From NCBI RefSeq assembly GCF_902762735.1, contig NZ_CACWPP010000017.1, positions 1-39,810 on the forward strand: a stretch of DNA of 39,810 bases. Direction: 5' to 3'. The first letter of the stretch is position 1, and every line of letters begins with the position of its first letter. Below, piece by piece: positions 24,209 to 31,595 of the stretch. The stretch comes from an uncultured Ruminococcus sp. (GTDB taxonomy: Bacteria > Bacillota > Clostridia > Oscillospirales > Ruminococcaceae). Below the pieces are notes generated by a model. It had not been told where the DNA came from. It saw only the letters and a program-made list of their open reading frames with translations, and searched no databases. The translations under genes were made by a program, and so were the position numbers.

Positions 24209-26170
24209 ATGACAAGAAAGGCGGCATGGGCAGGCTTTTCATTCTGTGCGGCGCTGATGCTTGCCGCTGCTTTCAGGAGCGAGCTTGATCCCACACTTTT
24301 GCTGACGGCTGTTGGGCTGTCTGTGGTGTGCTTTGCGGCATTCAGGAAATACCGCCGTCATGTGATCGTCTGCATTGTTTTCTTTGCACTTGGCATAGCG
24401 CTCAACAGTGCATATACGCATATGGTCTATGATAAAATTACCGCGCTTGACGGTCAGACTGTCACCATTAAGGGCTATATCAAAGACCGTTCACAGGTCG
24501 ATGGCTCATATGACCGCGTTACTGTCAGCGGGAAGATCGGCAGTCTGCCTGCCGAGATCAGTTTCGTTCTGCCGTATGACGATTTCCGCTATTATGATGA
24601 GATAACTGTCACCGATACAGTCAGCCTGATAGAAGACGGTGTGAAGTTTGACAGCGGCAGTTATAACTATTCAAAGTCTGTTTTCCTGCAAGGCGGCTAT
24701 GCAACGGGCAGCGCGGTACTTACAGGTAAGTCTGTGAACCCTGTTTTCAGGGAGATACGCGAGTACCGCGACAGACTTTTCAGCCTTATAATTGATACCT
24801 GTCCTCAGCGAGAGGGCGCATTCCTGGGTGCGATGCTGTGCGGCGATAAAAGCGAGCTTTCCCCTGCTTTAAAGACTGAGCTGTATCGCAGCGGGCTGGG
24901 GCATATCTTTGCAGTTTCGGGAATTCACCTTGTAATTGCGGTCACTTTTTTCAGTGCCATCGCAAGCAGGCTGATAAAGTCGCGCAGGGTAGTTACTTTT
25001 CTCACTTTCGCCGAAATATGGGGATTTGCTGTCTTTGCGGGACTATCTGTCAGCGTGGTGCGCGCAGCCGTAATGCTCACCCTGACAAAAAGCGGCAGAC
25101 TGTTCGGCAGAAAGACAGACGGACTGAATTCACTGGGGCTGTGCGCGATAATATTGACTGCCGCAAAGCCCTATACAGCTGTATCGCCGTCCTTTGTGCT
25201 GTCATTTCTCGCGGTGCTTGCGATCGAACTTGCCGCACTGCACAAACGTGATGACGAAAGTACTAAGGCAGAGGATACGCTAAGGCTCTCATCTTATGTG
25301 CTTTTTACGACTTCGCCCGCTTCTGCCATATTTTTCGGCGGGGTGTCAGTCATATCACTGCTGACTAATCTTCTGCTTGTCCCGTTGTGTACCGTTTCGC
25401 TGATGCTGTGCTTTGCAGTACTTCTGACAGGCGGCATACCGTTATTTGGCAGACCGCTCCTCCTGCTGGCGGCGATACCCGTCAGGTTCGTGCTGAGATG
25501 TGCTGATGATCTTGCTATGCTGGATCTCAGCTATATTTTCATAACAAATAATGTTCTGTTAGCCATAGTATCGCTTTTATCTGCCGCAATGATATTCATA
25601 CTTTCAAAGCAGAAAAACAGCAGGCGTTTTTTAGCGGCATCGCTGACAGTGATAGCCGTGTGGTGCGCGTCAGCTAATATCTCCCGTGTGCTTGACAGAG
25701 GGGTGAAGATAACAGTTTTGCCCTACGGCAGAAAGACTGCTTATGTGGTCTCGGAACAGGGAGATGCTGTCATTTTTGATGTGGGCGCTCGCGGCAGTCT
25801 TGACAGCGCAGTTGCCCGCCGCCTTGACCGACTGGGTGTCAGCAGAGTCTCCTGCGCCTTTATAAGCGAAAGGGCTTATATGACAGCATCTGAATATCCC
25901 GAAAACTTCTATTTTGAACCTCGCATGGTATTTGCCGCGAATGACCCGCTTGCAGAAGACAGTGACAGCATGACCATACTCAACAGCGGCGAAACTGCCG
26001 ATCTCGGCATGATGACCGTTACACCCGATGAAAAAGGCTACGCTGTCACTGTTGACGGAAATAGCTATGTTTTCGGAAAGGGCTTTATCATTATAGACGG
26101 CGAAAAGATCGACATTACAAATGAACGCACCGCACTGGTGCTTGAGGGAACGACTTTGAGGAGGCGATAA
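24209..26170 (+). CDS. comEC: ComEC/Rec2-family membrane channel with degenerate C-terminal domain
   Basis: A 653-residue polytopic membrane protein of the ComEC/Rec2 family, the DNA channel of natural transformation. An N-terminal pair of helices and a DUF4131-like soluble region (about 70-170) come first. The competence domain follows with the signature RSGLGHIFAVSGIHLVIAVT (about 228-247), WGFAVFAGLSVSVVRAAVML and further helices to about 480. The C-terminal part (about 500-650) occupies the place of the metallo-beta-lactamase domain but has no HxHxDH motif: the DVGARGSLDSAVARRL stretch is followed by FISERAYMTASEYPENF. The protein should form a pore but lack nuclease-type metal chemistry. 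It is followed by holA 2 bp later, the usual order. Confidence 0.9.
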   Translation: MTRKAAWAGFSFCAALMLAAAFRSELDPTLLLTAVGLSVVCFAAFRKYRRHVIVCIVFFALGIALNSAYTHMVYDKITALDGQTVTIKGYIKDRSQVDGSYDRVTVSGKIGSLPAEISFVLPYDDFRYYDEITVTDTVSLIEDGVKFDSGSYNYSKSVFLQGGYATGSAVLTGKSVNPVFREIREYRDRLFSLIIDTCPQREGAFLGAMLCGDKSELSPALKTELYRSGLGHIFAVSGIHLVIAVTFFSAIASRLIKSRRVVTFLTFAEIWGFAVFAGLSVSVVRAAVMLTLTKSGRLFGRKTDGLNSLGLCAIILTAAKPYTAVSPSFVLSFLAVLAIELAALHKRDDESTKAEDTLRLSSYVLFTTSPASAIFFGGVSVISLLTNLLLVPLCTVSLMLCFAVLLTGGIPLFGRPLLLLAAIPVRFVLRCADDLAMLDLSYIFITNNVLLAIVSLLSAAMIFILSKQKNSRRFLAASLTVIAVWCASANISRVLDRGVKITVLPYGRKTAYVVSEQGDAVIFDVGARGSLDSAVARRLDRLGVSRVSCAFISERAYMTASEYPENFYFEPRMVFAANDPLAEDSDSMTILNSGETADLGMMTVTPDEKGYAVTVDGNSYVFGKGFIIIDGEKIDITNERTALVLEGTTLRRR

Positions 26171-26172
26171 GC

Positions 26173-27237
26173 ATGCCCGTTACCAATTCTACCAATATCA
26201 CCAAAGATGTTAAAAACGGCGATATAGCAAATCTTTACTATTTTTACGGACACGATGCCGCCGCAGTTGAAAGCTATACACGCTGGCTGATAAACAAGCT
26301 GTGCCCAAAAGATGCGCAGTTTATGAACTTCCATAAATTTGAAGGCAAGTCGCTGAGCATACCCGCACTTTTAGATGCCTGTGAAGCTCTGCCGATGTTT
26401 GCTGAGCGTGTGGTAGTTGCGATAAATGATCTGAGAATGGAAGACCTGAATAAGGAAGACGGCGACGCACTGCGCAAGATGCTCTCAAAACTATCTGATA
26501 CTACTACTGTCATAATATATGCAACAGGCGTTGACCTGTATAAAAATAAGCGCAATCTCACCGACAAAAACAAGCGTTTCTGTGACCACTGTGCCAAATA
26601 CGGCGATGTATGTGATTTCGCTTATAAGTCCGCAGGGGAGCTTGGCAGATCCATAGTCGCCGCGCTCCAGAAAAAAGGCTGCGGCATTGACAGGCGCACA
26701 TCAGAGTATCTCGCTGAACTTTGCGGCTGTGATTCTGCTTTTATCAGGCAGGAGATAGAAAAGCTGTCCGCTTACGCAAACGGAAGGGCTGTCACCCGCG
26801 AGGATATTGATGCGCTGTGCATAAAGCATATCGAGTATGATGGCTATGAGCTTGCTGTCAATATCCTCAACAATAACGCAAAATACGTTTACAATCGCAT
26901 TTCCGAGCTTTCAGCACAGGACTTTGATGCCTACGAACTTGTCAGCATCATCAGCTTTTCACTGACTGACATCTATCGTGCAAAACTGGCTCGCTCATCG
27001 GGACTCAGCTATACTGATGCATGCAAGGATTTTGGGTATCCTAAAAACCGCGAATTCGCTATACGAAACGCATATCAGCTTTGCGGAAGCATCTCTGTGC
27101 ATAAGATCAGGGCTGTTATTAAGATCTTATCGGATACCGATCTTACGCTCAAGACGACATCACTTGATAATAAAGCGGCTATGCTGGTGCTTGAACAGCG
27201 TGTCGCAGAATGCTTTATGGCAGGAAACGGCAGGTAG
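26173..27237 (+). CDS. holA: DNA polymerase III delta subunit
   Basis: A 354-residue HolA-type clamp-loader subunit. The N-terminal part begins DIANLYYFYGHDAAAVESYT, where the family has a leading YLLxGxExxL stretch. The mid-region includes ALPMFAERVVVAINDLRM (the F-x-x-x-R-x-V-x-V-x-D/N motif) and TVIIYATG. The C-terminal AAA+ lid and collar helices follow (AELCGCDSAFIRQEIEKLSA). GAGGAGG in the end of comEC is its ribosome binding site. Delta opens the beta clamp during loading. ComEC-HolA adjacency is common in firmicutes and supports the call. Confidence 0.93.
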   Translation: MPVTNSTNITKDVKNGDIANLYYFYGHDAAAVESYTRWLINKLCPKDAQFMNFHKFEGKSLSIPALLDACEALPMFAERVVVAINDLRMEDLNKEDGDALRKMLSKLSDTTTVIIYATGVDLYKNKRNLTDKNKRFCDHCAKYGDVCDFAYKSAGELGRSIVAALQKKGCGIDRRTSEYLAELCGCDSAFIRQEIEKLSAYANGRAVTREDIDALCIKHIEYDGYELAVNILNNNAKYVYNRISELSAQDFDAYELVSIISFSLTDIYRAKLARSSGLSYTDACKDFGYPKNREFAIRNAYQLCGSISVHKIRAVIKILSDTDLTLKTTSLDNKAAMLVLEQRVAECFMAGNGR

Positions 27238-27240
27238 CAC

Positions 27241-27840
27241 ATGGATAAGATCAAGATAAAACAAGCAGTTGTGGTTGAGGGCAAATACGATAAGATAGCC
27301 CTCTCGAAGGTCATTGACGGTGTTATCATCACCACTGACGGTTTCGGTATATACCGAAACGAAGCTACCATCAAGCTGATACAGTTATATGCACATTCGG
27401 TGGGACTGGTCATTCTGACCGACTCGGATCAGGCAGGTCAGCAGATACGCGGGAGGATCAAAAGCATTGTCGGCGATGCTGAGATGATAAATGTCTATTG
27501 TCCCGTGATAGCAGGGAAGGAGCGCCGCAAGCTCCGCCCGTCCAAAGAGGGGACTCTGGGCGTGGAGGGCATGAGCGTGCAGATACTTCGCGAAGCCTTT
27601 GAAAAGGCAGGTCTGGCAGACGAAAAAGACATCAGGCGCGATCCTGTTACAAAACAGGATATGATAGCACTGGGACTGAACGGTTCACCCAACAGTTCTG
27701 CACTGCGCGAGCAGACTGCGCTTTCACTGGGGCTTCCGCCAAAACTCTCATCAAATGCGCTGCGTGATGCAGTAAGTACGCTGATGGGTCGCGAAGCGTT
27801 CATAGAGTATATCAAAAAACTGAAAGGGGAGGAAAAATGA
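27241..27840 (+). CDS. rnmV: Ribonuclease M5 (5S rRNA maturation)
   Basis: A 199-residue Toprim-domain endonuclease that trims the 5S rRNA precursor at the ends of its helix. Toprim residues are visible: Glu13 in VVVEGKYDK, and Asp61-x-Asp63 in LILTDSDQAGQQIRGRI. The C-terminal region SKEGTLGVEGMSVQILREAF (the GVE-xA-type motif) and its 5S-binding helices complete the family. It starts 3 bp after the holA stop without a strong ribosome binding site and overlaps the next gene by 4 nt (ATGA), so translation is probably coupled on both sides. Confidence 0.92.
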   Translation: MDKIKIKQAVVVEGKYDKIALSKVIDGVIITTDGFGIYRNEATIKLIQLYAHSVGLVILTDSDQAGQQIRGRIKSIVGDAEMINVYCPVIAGKERRKLRPSKEGTLGVEGMSVQILREAFEKAGLADEKDIRRDPVTKQDMIALGLNGSPNSSALREQTALSLGLPPKLSSNALRDAVSTLMGREAFIEYIKKLKGEEK

Positions 27841-29222
27841 TAGGACTCAGCTTTTTGTATTTTTTTCTCCCTGCTTTTGCGGCTGTTTACCTGCTTTCGC
27901 CCAAACCTTTCAAAAGCAGGTTCGTGCTGGTTACAAGTGCAGGCATGATATGCTGGGCAGATCCTATGGGGCTTATCGTTATGGCTGTGTGTATACTCAG
28001 CGGCTATCTGTTCGGCGTTTTCATTTTCAACTTTCGCGAAAAGCCCGTCAGCAAGTTACTGCTGGCGCTGGAGATCTTCATAAATATTGCTGTACTGCTG
28101 TTATTTCACCGCACAGCATATGATGGTGCAGATCTTCTTACCGTGCTGGGTCAGCGTTCACTTTTAAGGAAAGCAGCCACAGTCGGTGCGGCTGTCATGC
28201 CCCTGCATTCCATCGGCTATTGTGTTGATGTGTACAGGAAAAAGTACAGATGCGAACAGCGCTTCATAAAGATAGCGGAGTATATTGCATTTTTTCCCGT
28301 GTTTGCAGCGGGACCGATATTGAGGTATGATTATTTCAGTCCGCAGTTCGATGAACATAAAACAAACGTCAGCAGTATCGCTTCGGGGATAAGGCTGATA
28401 ATGCTCGGCATGTTTATGAAACTTTTCATATCAAATACCATGCTCGAACTGTGGGACGATGTGAGAGGCATACAGGTTTCATCACTGCCTGCACTGTCTG
28501 CTTGGATAGGCATAGCTGCATTTGCGTTTTTCGTCTACTTTGAGGTAAGCGCATTCTCAAACATCGGCTGCGGGATAGCGGCGATAATGGGGTTCAGACT
28601 GCCGCGATCTTTCCGCGAACCGTACAGGTCACACAGCTTCAGTGATTTCTGCCGCAAGTTCAACTGCACACTGTACCGCTGGTGCAAAGACTATATCTAC
28701 CGCAGCATAATACGCCGCGGCAGTCACGGTATATATAAGTTTCTGGCTATACTTATGTCAGTTCTGGCGGCATGCCTTTGGTATGGTACTTCTATGAGAT
28801 CGGTGTGCTTTGCACTCGCTATGGTGATAATGCTGTGCGCTGAGAAACTGCTGGAAGTCCCGCTAAAAAAACTGCCAAAGCCGATAAGGATACTTCTGTT
28901 TGTCGTGCTTTTGCTGACTATCCTGCCGTTTATGGCTTTATCCGATCCGTTTGAAGCACTGAAATATATCAAAGCTATGTACGGCGGCAATCAGATAGCG
29001 GCTGATATTACCTCAGAGTACCTTATCTCAACTTACTTCCTGTTCGTGGCACTCGGCATACTTATCTCGGGCGGAGTGTTCGGCTATTTTTTCAAAAAGA
29101 AGATATTCAATAACGAATACCTGAAAACTATCATTCAGCCTGTCTGGGTCATAGCGCTGCTCATTTTCTGTACATCTTTCCTTGTATCCGTCGGCAGCAG
29201 TCTGTTCAGGTATCTGTTATGA
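27837..29222 (+). CDS. MBOAT-family protein with catalytic histidines replaced (pseudo-acyltransferase)
   Basis: A 461-residue polytopic membrane protein with the architecture of AlgI/DltB-type MBOAT O-acyltransferases: VAGPI-like AAGPILRYDYF (about 160-170), FSNIGCGIAAIMGFRLPRSF (SDIAIG-like), FREPYRSHSFSDF (FNxPYxSxSxxDFW-like) and KDYIYRSIIRRGS. Two functional positions have changed. The FWRRWH site reads FCRKFN (Cys272, Asn276). The invariant catalytic His of LWHG is Tyr316 (LWYG, codon TAT at 28782). The frame is intact over all 461 codons, with about 10-12 hydrophobic segments, so the protein is made but is probably catalytically dead. The next gene encodes its usual DHHW partner, also altered. 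Confidence 0.85.
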   Translation: MIGLSFLYFFLPAFAAVYLLSPKPFKSRFVLVTSAGMICWADPMGLIVMAVCILSGYLFGVFIFNFREKPVSKLLLALEIFINIAVLLLFHRTAYDGADLLTVLGQRSLLRKAATVGAAVMPLHSIGYCVDVYRKKYRCEQRFIKIAEYIAFFPVFAAGPILRYDYFSPQFDEHKTNVSSIASGIRLIMLGMFMKLFISNTMLELWDDVRGIQVSSLPALSAWIGIAAFAFFVYFEVSAFSNIGCGIAAIMGFRLPRSFREPYRSHSFSDFCRKFNCTLYRWCKDYIYRSIIRRGSHGIYKFLAILMSVLAACLWYGTSMRSVCFALAMVIMLCAEKLLEVPLKKLPKPIRILLFVVLLLTILPFMALSDPFEALKYIKAMYGGNQIAADITSEYLISTYFLFVALGILISGGVFGYFFKKKIFNNEYLKTIIQPVWVIALLIFCTSFLVSVGSSLFRYLL

Positions 29223-29238
29223 GGGAGGTGACTGTGAA

Positions 29239-30342
29239 ATGAAAAAATTCTCCGATGCCATAACAGTTGCTGCATTTTTCGCGATCCTTCTCATGTTTGC
29301 GGTCAGCACTCTGTTTTTTCAGGATAAGATCCCTGTTTCAGAGCTTTTAAAGAAAAATGCAGATGTCGGTCAGACGATAAGCGAGTATGTTACTGACAGC
29401 TTCCCCATGAACAAGAACTGGCGCTCGATATACACAAATATCATGGTTTTTGCAGGGCGAAGCCGTTTCGATGATATTTACATCGCGGGGGACAGGCTGG
29501 TAAAGCTCGACAATCATCAGAAAGAAAACAGTATGATCGAAAATGTGGCGTATATAAATGAACTTGCCGCTAATACCGAGTGTCCTATATACATGATGCT
29601 CGCACCGACGGCGGCAGGGGTCTACAATGCGGATATTCCCGATATGTTCAATGACAAGTCTCAGCGCGAACGCATAAATGATGCTTATTTGCAGCTTGAC
29701 AGGCGTATCGCGTCGATAGATGCCTTTTACCCGCTGTATTCTGCAAGAGATGAATATGTATATTACCGTACCGAAAACCTGTGGACAGGCTTTGGCGCAT
29801 ACTATGCCTATTACGAATCCACAAAAAAGCTGGGTCTGCAGGCTGTTACACTGGATAATTACGATCAGGAGTTTGCAGAGTCGGGCTTTTTCGGGAGCCT
29901 TTACGATTCTGCTATGGTCAGCGGGATAAAACCAGACAGGATAAACATTTTCCGCTCAAAATACCAAAGCCCTGTAACTGAGGTAGATATGTACGACGGC
30001 GACAGCACTAAGCAGGCTGAGTCGGTCTACTTCCGTTCCGCACTGAAAGGCTCTAAAAGGACAGATATTTTTCTTCAGGGCGATAAGCATATCAAGACCG
30101 ATATTTATACCGATCTTGACAACGAAAGTGAACTGCTTATCATAAAGGGCAGTTTTGCCAATACCATCGTGCCTTTCTATACCGCTCATTACAGCCGTAT
30201 AACTATGGTCGATCCCATGAAACTCAAAGAAGCCGACCTGACACTTTCAGATGTTGTTTCGCTGGACGATTATGACCGTATACTTGTACTTTTTGATATT
30301 GAAAGTTTTTCAAATTTAAAGTGTTTTGATACGCTGAAATAA
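29239..30342 (+). CDS. DHHW-family (AlgX/DltD-like) protein with catalytic motif lost
   Basis: A 367-residue protein with one N-terminal membrane helix (about 7-25) and an extracellular SGNH-like domain, the partner normally encoded next to an MBOAT protein for O-acetylation of surface polymers. The family anchor reads YYRTENLWTGFGAYYAYYES, so the DHHW tetrad is E179-N180-L181-W182. Family members usually have DSYAN or DSFG at the serine motif; here it is K303-G304-S305-F306-A307-N308. Fold-forming segments (CPIYMMLAPTAAGVYNADIP, FANTIVPFYTAHYSRITMVD) are retained. The ATG at 29239 has GGGAGG 9-10 nt upstream; an upstream in-frame ATG lies inside the MBOAT gene. It is probably non-catalytic and may bind polymer or partner. 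Confidence 0.82.
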   Translation: MKKFSDAITVAAFFAILLMFAVSTLFFQDKIPVSELLKKNADVGQTISEYVTDSFPMNKNWRSIYTNIMVFAGRSRFDDIYIAGDRLVKLDNHQKENSMIENVAYINELAANTECPIYMMLAPTAAGVYNADIPDMFNDKSQRERINDAYLQLDRRIASIDAFYPLYSARDEYVYYRTENLWTGFGAYYAYYESTKKLGLQAVTLDNYDQEFAESGFFGSLYDSAMVSGIKPDRINIFRSKYQSPVTEVDMYDGDSTKQAESVYFRSALKGSKRTDIFLQGDKHIKTDIYTDLDNESELLIIKGSFANTIVPFYTAHYSRITMVDPMKLKEADLTLSDVVSLDDYDRILVLFDIESFSNLKCFDTLK

Positions 30343-30506: not shown

Positions 30507-31595
30507 ATGGCAAATATCTACAATAACCTTAATTTGATCGACCTCAATGATTTTCCCGTGACATGGTGGACAGGTTTGCTTGACAAAGCACATGCTATCA
30601 TGGCAGATCCTGCTGCTTATGCTGAAAGCTGCAAGGGAAAAATAATGGGTACACTGTTCTATGAACCGTCCACCAGAACACAGATGTCTTTTCAGACCGC
30701 TATGCTGCGGCTCGGCGGCACTATAATCGGGTTTGATAACCCTGCCACATCTTCTGTTGCAAAGGGCGAGAACATCAAGGATACTACAAAGATCGTTTCA
30801 GGTTATGCGGATATAATGGTCATGCGTCACCCTGTTGCGGGTTCTGTCAAGGCGGCGGCACTTACGGCTGACTGCCCTGTTATCAACGCAGGTGATGGCG
30901 GTCATCTCCATCCCACACAGACACTTACCGACCTGCTGACACTCAAAGAAGAAAAAGGTACTCTTGAAGATCTCTGCATAGGTTTTTGCGGTGATCTTAA
31001 AAATGGCAGAACAGTGCATTCGCTGATAAAAGCCATGTCATGCTTTAAAGGAACAACATTTGTGCTGATCTCAACGCCTGAGCTATCGCTGCCTGCCTAT
31101 GTTAAGGCGTTTCTCTCAGCAAGCGGTCATACCTATAAAGAGGTATCAAGCCTTGACGATGCTGTCGGCATGCTAGATGTCCTTTATATGACGCGCATAC
31201 AGCGTGAGCGTTTCTCCAGTCCTGAGGAGTATGAGAAACAGAAGGGCTGCTATATACTCGATAATAAGAAAATGTCAAAGGCTAAGGACAGCATGATAGT
31301 CCTTCACCCGCTGCCAAGAGTTGATGAGATAGCTATCGAAGTAGATGACGATCCCCGCGCCATGTACTTTAAGCAGGCTAAATACGGCATGTTCGTCAGA
31401 ATGGCACTGATACTTACAATGCTTGAAAACAGCACCATGAAAGTCCCGCTGATAACAGGCAGGGTGCATAAGCATCAGACATGCTCCAACCCGCTCTGCA
31501 TCACTCATAAAGAGACTTATCTGCCACATTATTTCAGAGGAGACAGCACCATGCTGGAATGCGAATACTGCGACGAAAGGACGCTCGTAGAGTAA
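30507..31595 (+). CDS. pyrB: Aspartate carbamoyltransferase with fused C-terminal zinc module
   Basis: A 362-residue enzyme of pyrimidine synthesis (carbamoyl phosphate plus aspartate to carbamoyl aspartate). The carbamoyl-phosphate loop S55-T56-R57-T58 (EPSTRTQMSF), SSVAKGENIKDT, GDGGHLHPTQ and VLHPLPRVDE are intact. The catalytic domain ends near 320 and a zinc module follows: C326-x4-C331 (TCSNPLCIT) and C352-x2-C355 (LECEYCDE), the pattern of the PyrI zinc domain that binds PyrB. The catalytic and zinc-interface functions are therefore one chain, without the PyrI allosteric domain. AAAGGAAG precedes the ATG. The following amidase gene starts 18 bp later. Confidence 0.93.
   Translation: MANIYNNLNLIDLNDFPVTWWTGLLDKAHAIMADPAAYAESCKGKIMGTLFYEPSTRTQMSFQTAMLRLGGTIIGFDNPATSSVAKGENIKDTTKIVSGYADIMVMRHPVAGSVKAAALTADCPVINAGDGGHLHPTQTLTDLLTLKEEKGTLEDLCIGFCGDLKNGRTVHSLIKAMSCFKGTTFVLISTPELSLPAYVKAFLSASGHTYKEVSSLDDAVGMLDVLYMTRIQRERFSSPEEYEKQKGCYILDNKKMSKAKDSMIVLHPLPRVDEIAIEVDDDPRAMYFKQAKYGMFVRMALILTMLENSTMKVPLITGRVHKHQTCSNPLCITHKETYLPHYFRGDSTMLECEYCDERTLVE

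Follow-up and report, generated by a model that had tools for sequence, protein, structure and literature searches.

A retained MBOAT-DHHW gene pair behind rnmV in Ruminococcus and related genera, with apparent loss of catalysis in both partners

Acyl transfer by pairs of MBOAT and SGNH proteins has been described as a relay that requires the catalytic histidine of the MBOAT, the tyrosine of a C-terminal FXYXXF shuttle and the active site of the SGNH partner, according to the portion of the source on which we draw (PMC12148441). PatB1, a partner of the DHHW branch, uses the serine of KDS, the aspartate and histidine of TDHHW and the arginine of DXRY (the oxyanion residue, Arg359), and variants at residues of these motifs have lost or reduced activity, as summarized in the relevant part of a review (PMC9487903). 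The upstream MBOAT residue varies across the family, being His, Asn or Asp, and in the mammalian MBOAT HHATL, where the catalytic His is replaced by Leu, the protein is reported to bind Shh and to reduce Shh palmitoylation (PMC5831804, in the section consulted). No description of dead bacterial MBOAT-SGNH pairs was found in the titles, abstracts and passages searched, in a library that excludes most subscription papers and bioRxiv preprints. Here, we analyze an MBOAT-DHHW gene pair in a 39,810-nucleotide stretch of an uncultured Ruminococcus sp. (Ruminococcaceae; contig NZ_CACWPP010000017.1 of assembly GCF_902762735.1, positions 1 to 39,810 of the forward strand), referred to below as the window.

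The two genes probably encode a conserved pseudoenzyme pair, in which catalysis appears to have been lost in both partners and which would be kept for a non-catalytic job, most likely the binding or holding of an envelope glycan. A first-pass annotation of the window had proposed parallel loss without frame damage and a retained non-catalytic function; this reading is supported in its main part by substitution rates, by the orthologues and by an intact second pair in the same genome. The features of the pair are:

27837-29222, plus strand: membrane protein of the MBOAT family that lacks both the catalytic His (Tyr316 instead) and the acyl shuttle FXYXXF at the C-terminus (PF03062, motif columns, model)
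28647-28664, plus strand: FCRKFN (residues 271-276) in place of FWRRWH (alignment with intact pairs)
28782-28784, plus strand: codon for Tyr316 at the position of the MBOAT catalytic His, which turns LWHG into LWYG (W315-Y316-G317; motif alignment)
29199-29219, plus strand: SLFRYLL at the C-terminus, compared with FLYF[RNK]F, the FXYXXF acyl shuttle, at the end of most intact relatives (motif comparison)
29239-30342, plus strand: PatB1-like SGNH protein of the DHHW family, which starts with a helix, a likely membrane anchor, and has a degenerate triad (PF14286, model)
29773-29784, plus strand: ENLW (E179-W182) in place of DHHW, TENLW for TDHHW (motif alignment)
30145-30162, plus strand: KGSFAN (303-308) in place of KDSYAN, with Ser305 retained and the Asp lost (Asp304 to Gly; motif alignment)
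30211-30222, plus strand: DPMK (325-328) in place of DxRY, with the oxyanion Arg lost (Met327; motif alignment)

Both proteins score above the curated cut-offs of their families. The MBOAT reaches 72.4 bits against PF03062 (cut-off 27; 5.2e-20) and 78.8 bits against the DltB model TIGR04091, below the NCBIfam equivalog cut-off of 375; the best Foldseek match of its AlphaFold2 model (predicted local distance difference test score, pLDDT, 86.5) is DltB (6bug, 1.2e-10). The partner reaches 94.8 bits against PF14286 (cut-off 25; 8.8e-27), and its model (pLDDT 88.4), in which residues 2-26 form a helix, matches a DHHW protein of E. siraeum (4nzk, 9.0e-22) and PatB1 (5v8d, 5.5e-18), which places a PatB1-like SGNH fold in the predicted structure.

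The substitutions in the catalytic motifs are largely those that the first-pass annotation had named. Tyr316 does occupy the position of the catalytic His and is evidence for the loss of this residue. Cys272 and Asn276 likewise lie within the FWRRWH position, but Asn276 by itself is not diagnostic of loss because MBOATs may have any of His, Asn and Asp at this upstream position. In the partner, ENLW stands in place of DHHW, and residues 303-308 read KGSFAN as had been proposed. The missing acyl shuttle and the missing oxyanion Arg are two further losses, so that, to judge from the motifs, all readable parts of the acyl relay are lost or damaged in both partners, with Ser305 remaining in the window. 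A catalytic histidine displaced to another position was rejected for both chains. No His is invariant in a 19-row alignment of the MBOAT; His317 of the partner is invariant in the corresponding 19 rows, but it is also the commonest residue at this position (81%) in intact orthologues that have their own DHHW, which argues against a relocated or new catalytic His.

The loss is not confined to the window genome, an explanation that we rejected on the strength of dead orthologues across the genus and in other genera. Within the genus, an orthologue was found in 20 of 29 genomes, the window's own included. The catalytic His is absent from all 20 MBOATs, which have Tyr, Phe or Leu at position 316, and neither His of DHHW is present in any of the 19 scorable partners (the twentieth is truncated where its contig stops); because both absences are complete, the double loss is more than chance. 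The replacing residues differ between species, with Ser, Gly, Thr, His or Asp at position 305 of the partner.

The pair belongs to a compact run of genes, which the first-pass annotation had called a tight operon with comEC, holA and rnmV and which the coordinates confirm. The gene order is alaS-HIT-comEC-holA-rnmV-MBOAT-DHHW-pyrB (the HIT label comes from sequence alone), with dense packing from comEC to the partner, on contig C17 of a 4.06 Mb genome.

24209-27840, plus strand: comEC, holA and rnmV, conserved upstream neighbours that mark the locus (profile matches, comparison of loci)

comEC ends at 26170, holA spans 26173-27237 and rnmV starts at 27241, overlapping the MBOAT gene by 4 bp; a gap of 16 bp separates the MBOAT gene from that of the partner and 164 bp separate the latter from pyrB. 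Both frames are fully open, as originally noted: 461 amino acids for the MBOAT (27837-29222) and 367 for the partner (29239-30342, from an ATG; the listed open reading frame is longer and starts with TTG at 29182). The nearest named relative is Ruminococcus albus 8, with protein identities of 82% (MBOAT) and 81% (partner).

The locus was sampled irrespective of the pair by a search for rnmV, which was matched in 140 of 148 genomes of the family; 100 loci from 95 genera, mostly one per genus, were then picked by hand from these matches. A locus was scored as dead if His316 was missing or the partner was dead. By this rule, 26 loci are intact, 37 are dead, 33 lack the pair and 4 have only the MBOAT or are cut; at the level of genera, a dead pair is present in 36, an intact one in 26 and an incomplete one in 3, whereas 30 have no pair. 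The observation thus holds and extends more widely than had been supposed from the window.

Intact and dead motifs also go together within pairs. Additional loci came from a scan of genome contigs with patterns from the dead genus alignment, in which 80 of 239 relatives were kept as named loci. The pooled set, mostly from the rnmV locus with some unlinked pairs (for example, the active L031-L040), comprised 209 entries, of which 25 were duplicates; 22 of the 184 distinct entries lacked a score for one partner or both, leaving 162. Among these, both partners are intact in 87 pairs and dead in 74, and one pair is mixed; the counts become 87, 73 and two, respectively, when His316 is the sole criterion for the MBOAT, and loss in one partner alone is accordingly rejected. 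The mixed pair, L188 (genus g100), has a dead MBOAT and a partner that keeps the D-H-S letters with the oxyanion Arg lost; in L173 (genus g14), the MBOAT His is kept, the shuttle Tyr is replaced by Met and the partner is dead. These two loci, both counted among the 37 dead, are possible intermediates. The shuttle motif, which is independent of the class definition and was scored within the last 40 residues, is present in 90 of 91 MBOATs with His316 vs 1 of 78 without it, the single match (L243) lying 17 residues before the end. Partners scored as intact have KDS in 96 of 96 cases and the Arg in 95 of 96; dead partners keep the Ser in 19 of 78 and the oxyanion Arg in 2 of 78.

These counts bear on whether the pair could still catalyze by means of other residues, which we regard as very unlikely. 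The Ser that persists in the window and in some dead partners, the invariance of His317 and the strong purifying selection described below would fit such a scheme, but the replacements vary within the genus at both position 316 and position 305, the shuttle, the triad and the oxyanion Arg disappear together, no MBOAT His is invariant, and His317 is common in intact orthologues as well.

Purifying selection, for which the first-pass annotation had advised looking, is apparent in close comparisons, where the ratio of nonsynonymous to synonymous substitution rates (dN/dS) is about 0.05-0.12, far below 1 and similar to that of active pairs. In the four closest comparisons, in several of which dS exceeds 1, the NG86 estimates are 0.073-0.098 for the MBOAT and 0.052-0.078 for the partner, and the YN00 estimates 0.077-0.097 and 0.058-0.123. 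The window and R. albus 8 give NG86 values of 0.081 and 0.078 (YN00 for the partner, 0.123), and three close R. albus-type genomes 0.073-0.098 and 0.052-0.075. The neighbours in the same four comparisons range over 0.021-0.031 (holA), 0.036-0.051 (rnmV) and 0.093-0.166 (comEC), and active congener pairs over 0.041-0.102 (MBOAT) and 0.035-0.142 (partner) by NG86, for values under the dS limit (the 12 listed of 27 MBOAT comparisons and all 12 of the DHHW partner). As far as sequences and predicted structures can be read, the frames stay open, the modelled folds and the pairing of the genes persist, the locus is kept and purifying selection continues.

Conservation over longer times was compared between dead clade 1 (30 rows) and 67 intact rows, a column being taken to fall if its conservation is 95% or more in the intact rows and below 90% in the dead clade. 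The partner keeps 27 columns, including P123, Y173, R177, T178, W182, G186, Y318 and D325, and 19 fall. By these alignments, the extracytoplasmic partner is the better kept half, which is why we rank glycan binding above a role confined to the membrane.

Several observations weigh against retention for a dedicated function. In the MBOAT of dead clade 1, 15 columns stay and 112 fall, so that this protein is only loosely constrained over long times. The pair is dispensable in 8 of the 28 genus genomes with a located rnmV (rnmV was not found in one of the 29), because there both genes are gone and rnmV is followed directly by pyrB. The MBOAT frame is broken in one congener metagenome-assembled genome (L025) and in L133, from another genus, and the partner matches in three g71 genomes have one stop each, with open frames of 363-408 amino acids. 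Distant dN/dS comparisons are saturated or undefined, the defined NG86 values being at most 0.120 (MBOAT) and 0.097 (partner). Taken to the extreme, the absent pairs and broken MBOAT frames, together with the long branches of dead rows in gene trees, would describe pseudogenes on their way out. This is close to refuted: dN/dS in close comparisons resembles that of active pairs instead of approaching 1, so that frame decay is rejected, dead pairs occupy the locus in more than a third of the sampled genera, and core columns are conserved.

Profile searches in 20 other families of the order, at a single locus per family, showed no MBOAT or DHHW gene, although two of these stretches (L265 and L280) end soon after rnmV and are little informative; the pair therefore probably reached the rnmV locus within this family. 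It would have come as an enzyme and died at a later time. On a tree of holA and rnmV (152 rows, of which 120 were scored, 62 of them dead), the state of the pair changes at least nine times. Five supported independent contrasts are available, and both partners change in all five (sign test p 0.0625, the lowest possible with five), the partner of L188 having been coded as dead by its lost Arg, a decision made post hoc. Two dead clades lie within well supported groups that have intact members, namely Ruminococcus and relatives (23 rows, one without the pair) and the L155/L097/L098 group (9 rows).

The gene trees disagree with this housekeeping tree, and the dead rows form long branches in both the MBOAT and the DHHW trees. 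A possible but doubtful account, which concerns history only and is compatible with the other readings, is that a pair which died once, long ago, was spread by gene replacement, as opposed to repeated death in place. The MBOAT tree (137 rows after thinning) shows just 2 changes, and in a 50-row test, for which the clade was chosen after the housekeeping tree was known, it unites all 16 dead rows (100) and leans against the housekeeping grouping (approximately unbiased test, p-AU 0.0516); the DHHW data do not reject a single dead clade (p-AU 0.526). Long dead branches, however, attract each other, the DHHW tree of the same 50 rows contains the housekeeping grouping at low support (54), and the larger DHHW tree (136 rows after thinning) has 5 changes, with dead clades nested among intact ones, compared with the nine on the holA and rnmV tree.

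We propose that an MBOAT-DHHW pair active in envelope O-acetylation became established behind rnmV in this family and that both partners later died at this locus. The two proteins would remain associated as a complex in the membrane, with the SGNH-like domain on the outer side of the cell, and the likeliest present job of this complex would be to bind or hold an envelope glycan, in the manner of a scaffold or a lectin, with no acetyl transfer; glycan binding, scaffolding and regulation are the candidate roles. A conserved pseudoenzyme pair is also favoured by a second dead-MBOAT locus in the genus, which retains just the anchor-like part of a DHHW partner. A broader and more tentative suggestion is that the two-protein envelope acyltransferase was converted on several independent occasions into a complex dedicated to a non-catalytic task (glycan binding or sensing), the relay being shed each time, and that the active pair already had a second, chemistry-free function on which selection could act.

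The genome does contain the second, intact pair for which a search had been advised. It is on contig C29 and has FWQRWH and LWHG in the MBOAT and TDHHW and KDSYGN in the partner. MBOATs with both His, and no adjacent DHHW match, are on C30 and C47; DHHW proteins without an adjacent MBOAT are on C5 and C58 (the C58 copy lies near a contig end). The coexistence of dead and intact pairs raises the prospect that the former regulates the latter by competing for a substrate or partner, by analogy with HHATL, which is proposed to compete in this way with HHAT and is reported to lower Shh palmitoylation (PMC5831804, as far as the part consulted goes). We consider this rather unlikely, since the eight genus genomes without the dead pair still have an intact one (L031-L037 and L039), which leaves no simple dependence between the two, and since no other MBOAT match is present on the window's contig.

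Another MBOAT of the same genome (C72:19410-20759, or L293:9411-10760) is itself dead, with KSYN and LWYQ. It belongs to a second dead MBOAT family in Ruminococcus (L285-L294), in which all 10 fetched loci show [KR]S[YF]N together with [LIV]WY and the sequences inspected have no FXYXXF tail. In nine of these loci (the tenth is cut), the gene after the MBOAT encodes a short protein whose similarity to DHHW proteins is restricted to their N-terminal part (of 4 scanned, 2 match PF14286, at E 0.003 and 0.01, both short of the cut-off) and which has a Thr/Pro-rich tail in place of the SGNH domain; the next gene encodes a radical-SAM protein (4 of 4 scanned; 9 aligned).

Some neighbouring features of the rnmV locus were recorded as well. 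ComEC (24209-26170) lacks the [ST]HxDxDH-type metal motif that we take to be expected in its C-terminal beta-lactamase-like domain, and none of the 118 ComEC frames longer than 550 amino acids in the fetched loci shows this pattern, so that the domain may have degenerated throughout the genera sampled. Residues 325-358 at the C-terminus of PyrB (30507-31595) match the PyrI metal-binding domain (PF02748, 3e-07), a PyrB-PyrI tail fusion. In R. bicirculans 80/3, the alaS-to-cwlD block with a dead pair is on a record titled chromosome II (L053, NZ_HF545617.1).

MBOAT-SGNH pairs have been studied as enzymes, and because both window proteins exceed the Pfam cut-offs, such models would annotate them as acyltransferases. 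Judged by their motifs, pairs kept by 36 of the 95 sampled genera of a single family would be unable to run the known acyl-Tyr relay. If both partners lose catalysis yet stay jointly selected, the complex must do more than chemistry, and this combination of loss and retention points to a second, non-catalytic job for machines that acetylate the cell surface. Intact and dead versions at one locus offer a ready comparison for finding the retained function.

The window pair shares its two-gene arrangement and its folds with PatA/PatB, AlgI/AlgJ-AlgX and DltB/DltX/DltD, with Foldseek matches to DltB and PatB1 and, more weakly, to AlgJ/AlgX; unlike these systems, it lacks the MBOAT His, FXYXXF, the Asp and His of DHHW and the oxyanion Arg. 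In Bacillus cereus, PatA1/PatB1 is the first characterized DHHW pair, according to the part of the review consulted (PMC9487903); the window partner shares its DHHW hidden Markov model and fold, but has TENLW for TDHHW, KGS for KDS and DPMK for DXRY. The intact rnmV-linked pairs of neighbouring genera (for example, L060, L063, L069 and L154) have the same two genes at the same comEC-holA-rnmV locus and differ in having intact FWRRWH, LWHG, shuttle, DHHW, KDSYA and DxRY. HHATL resembles the window MBOAT in being retained without the conserved His; it acts on Hedgehog palmitoylation, and the section of the source on which we rely names no SGNH partner (PMC5831804). The difference from HHATL, as read from the motifs, is that here both members of a two-protein relay are dead.

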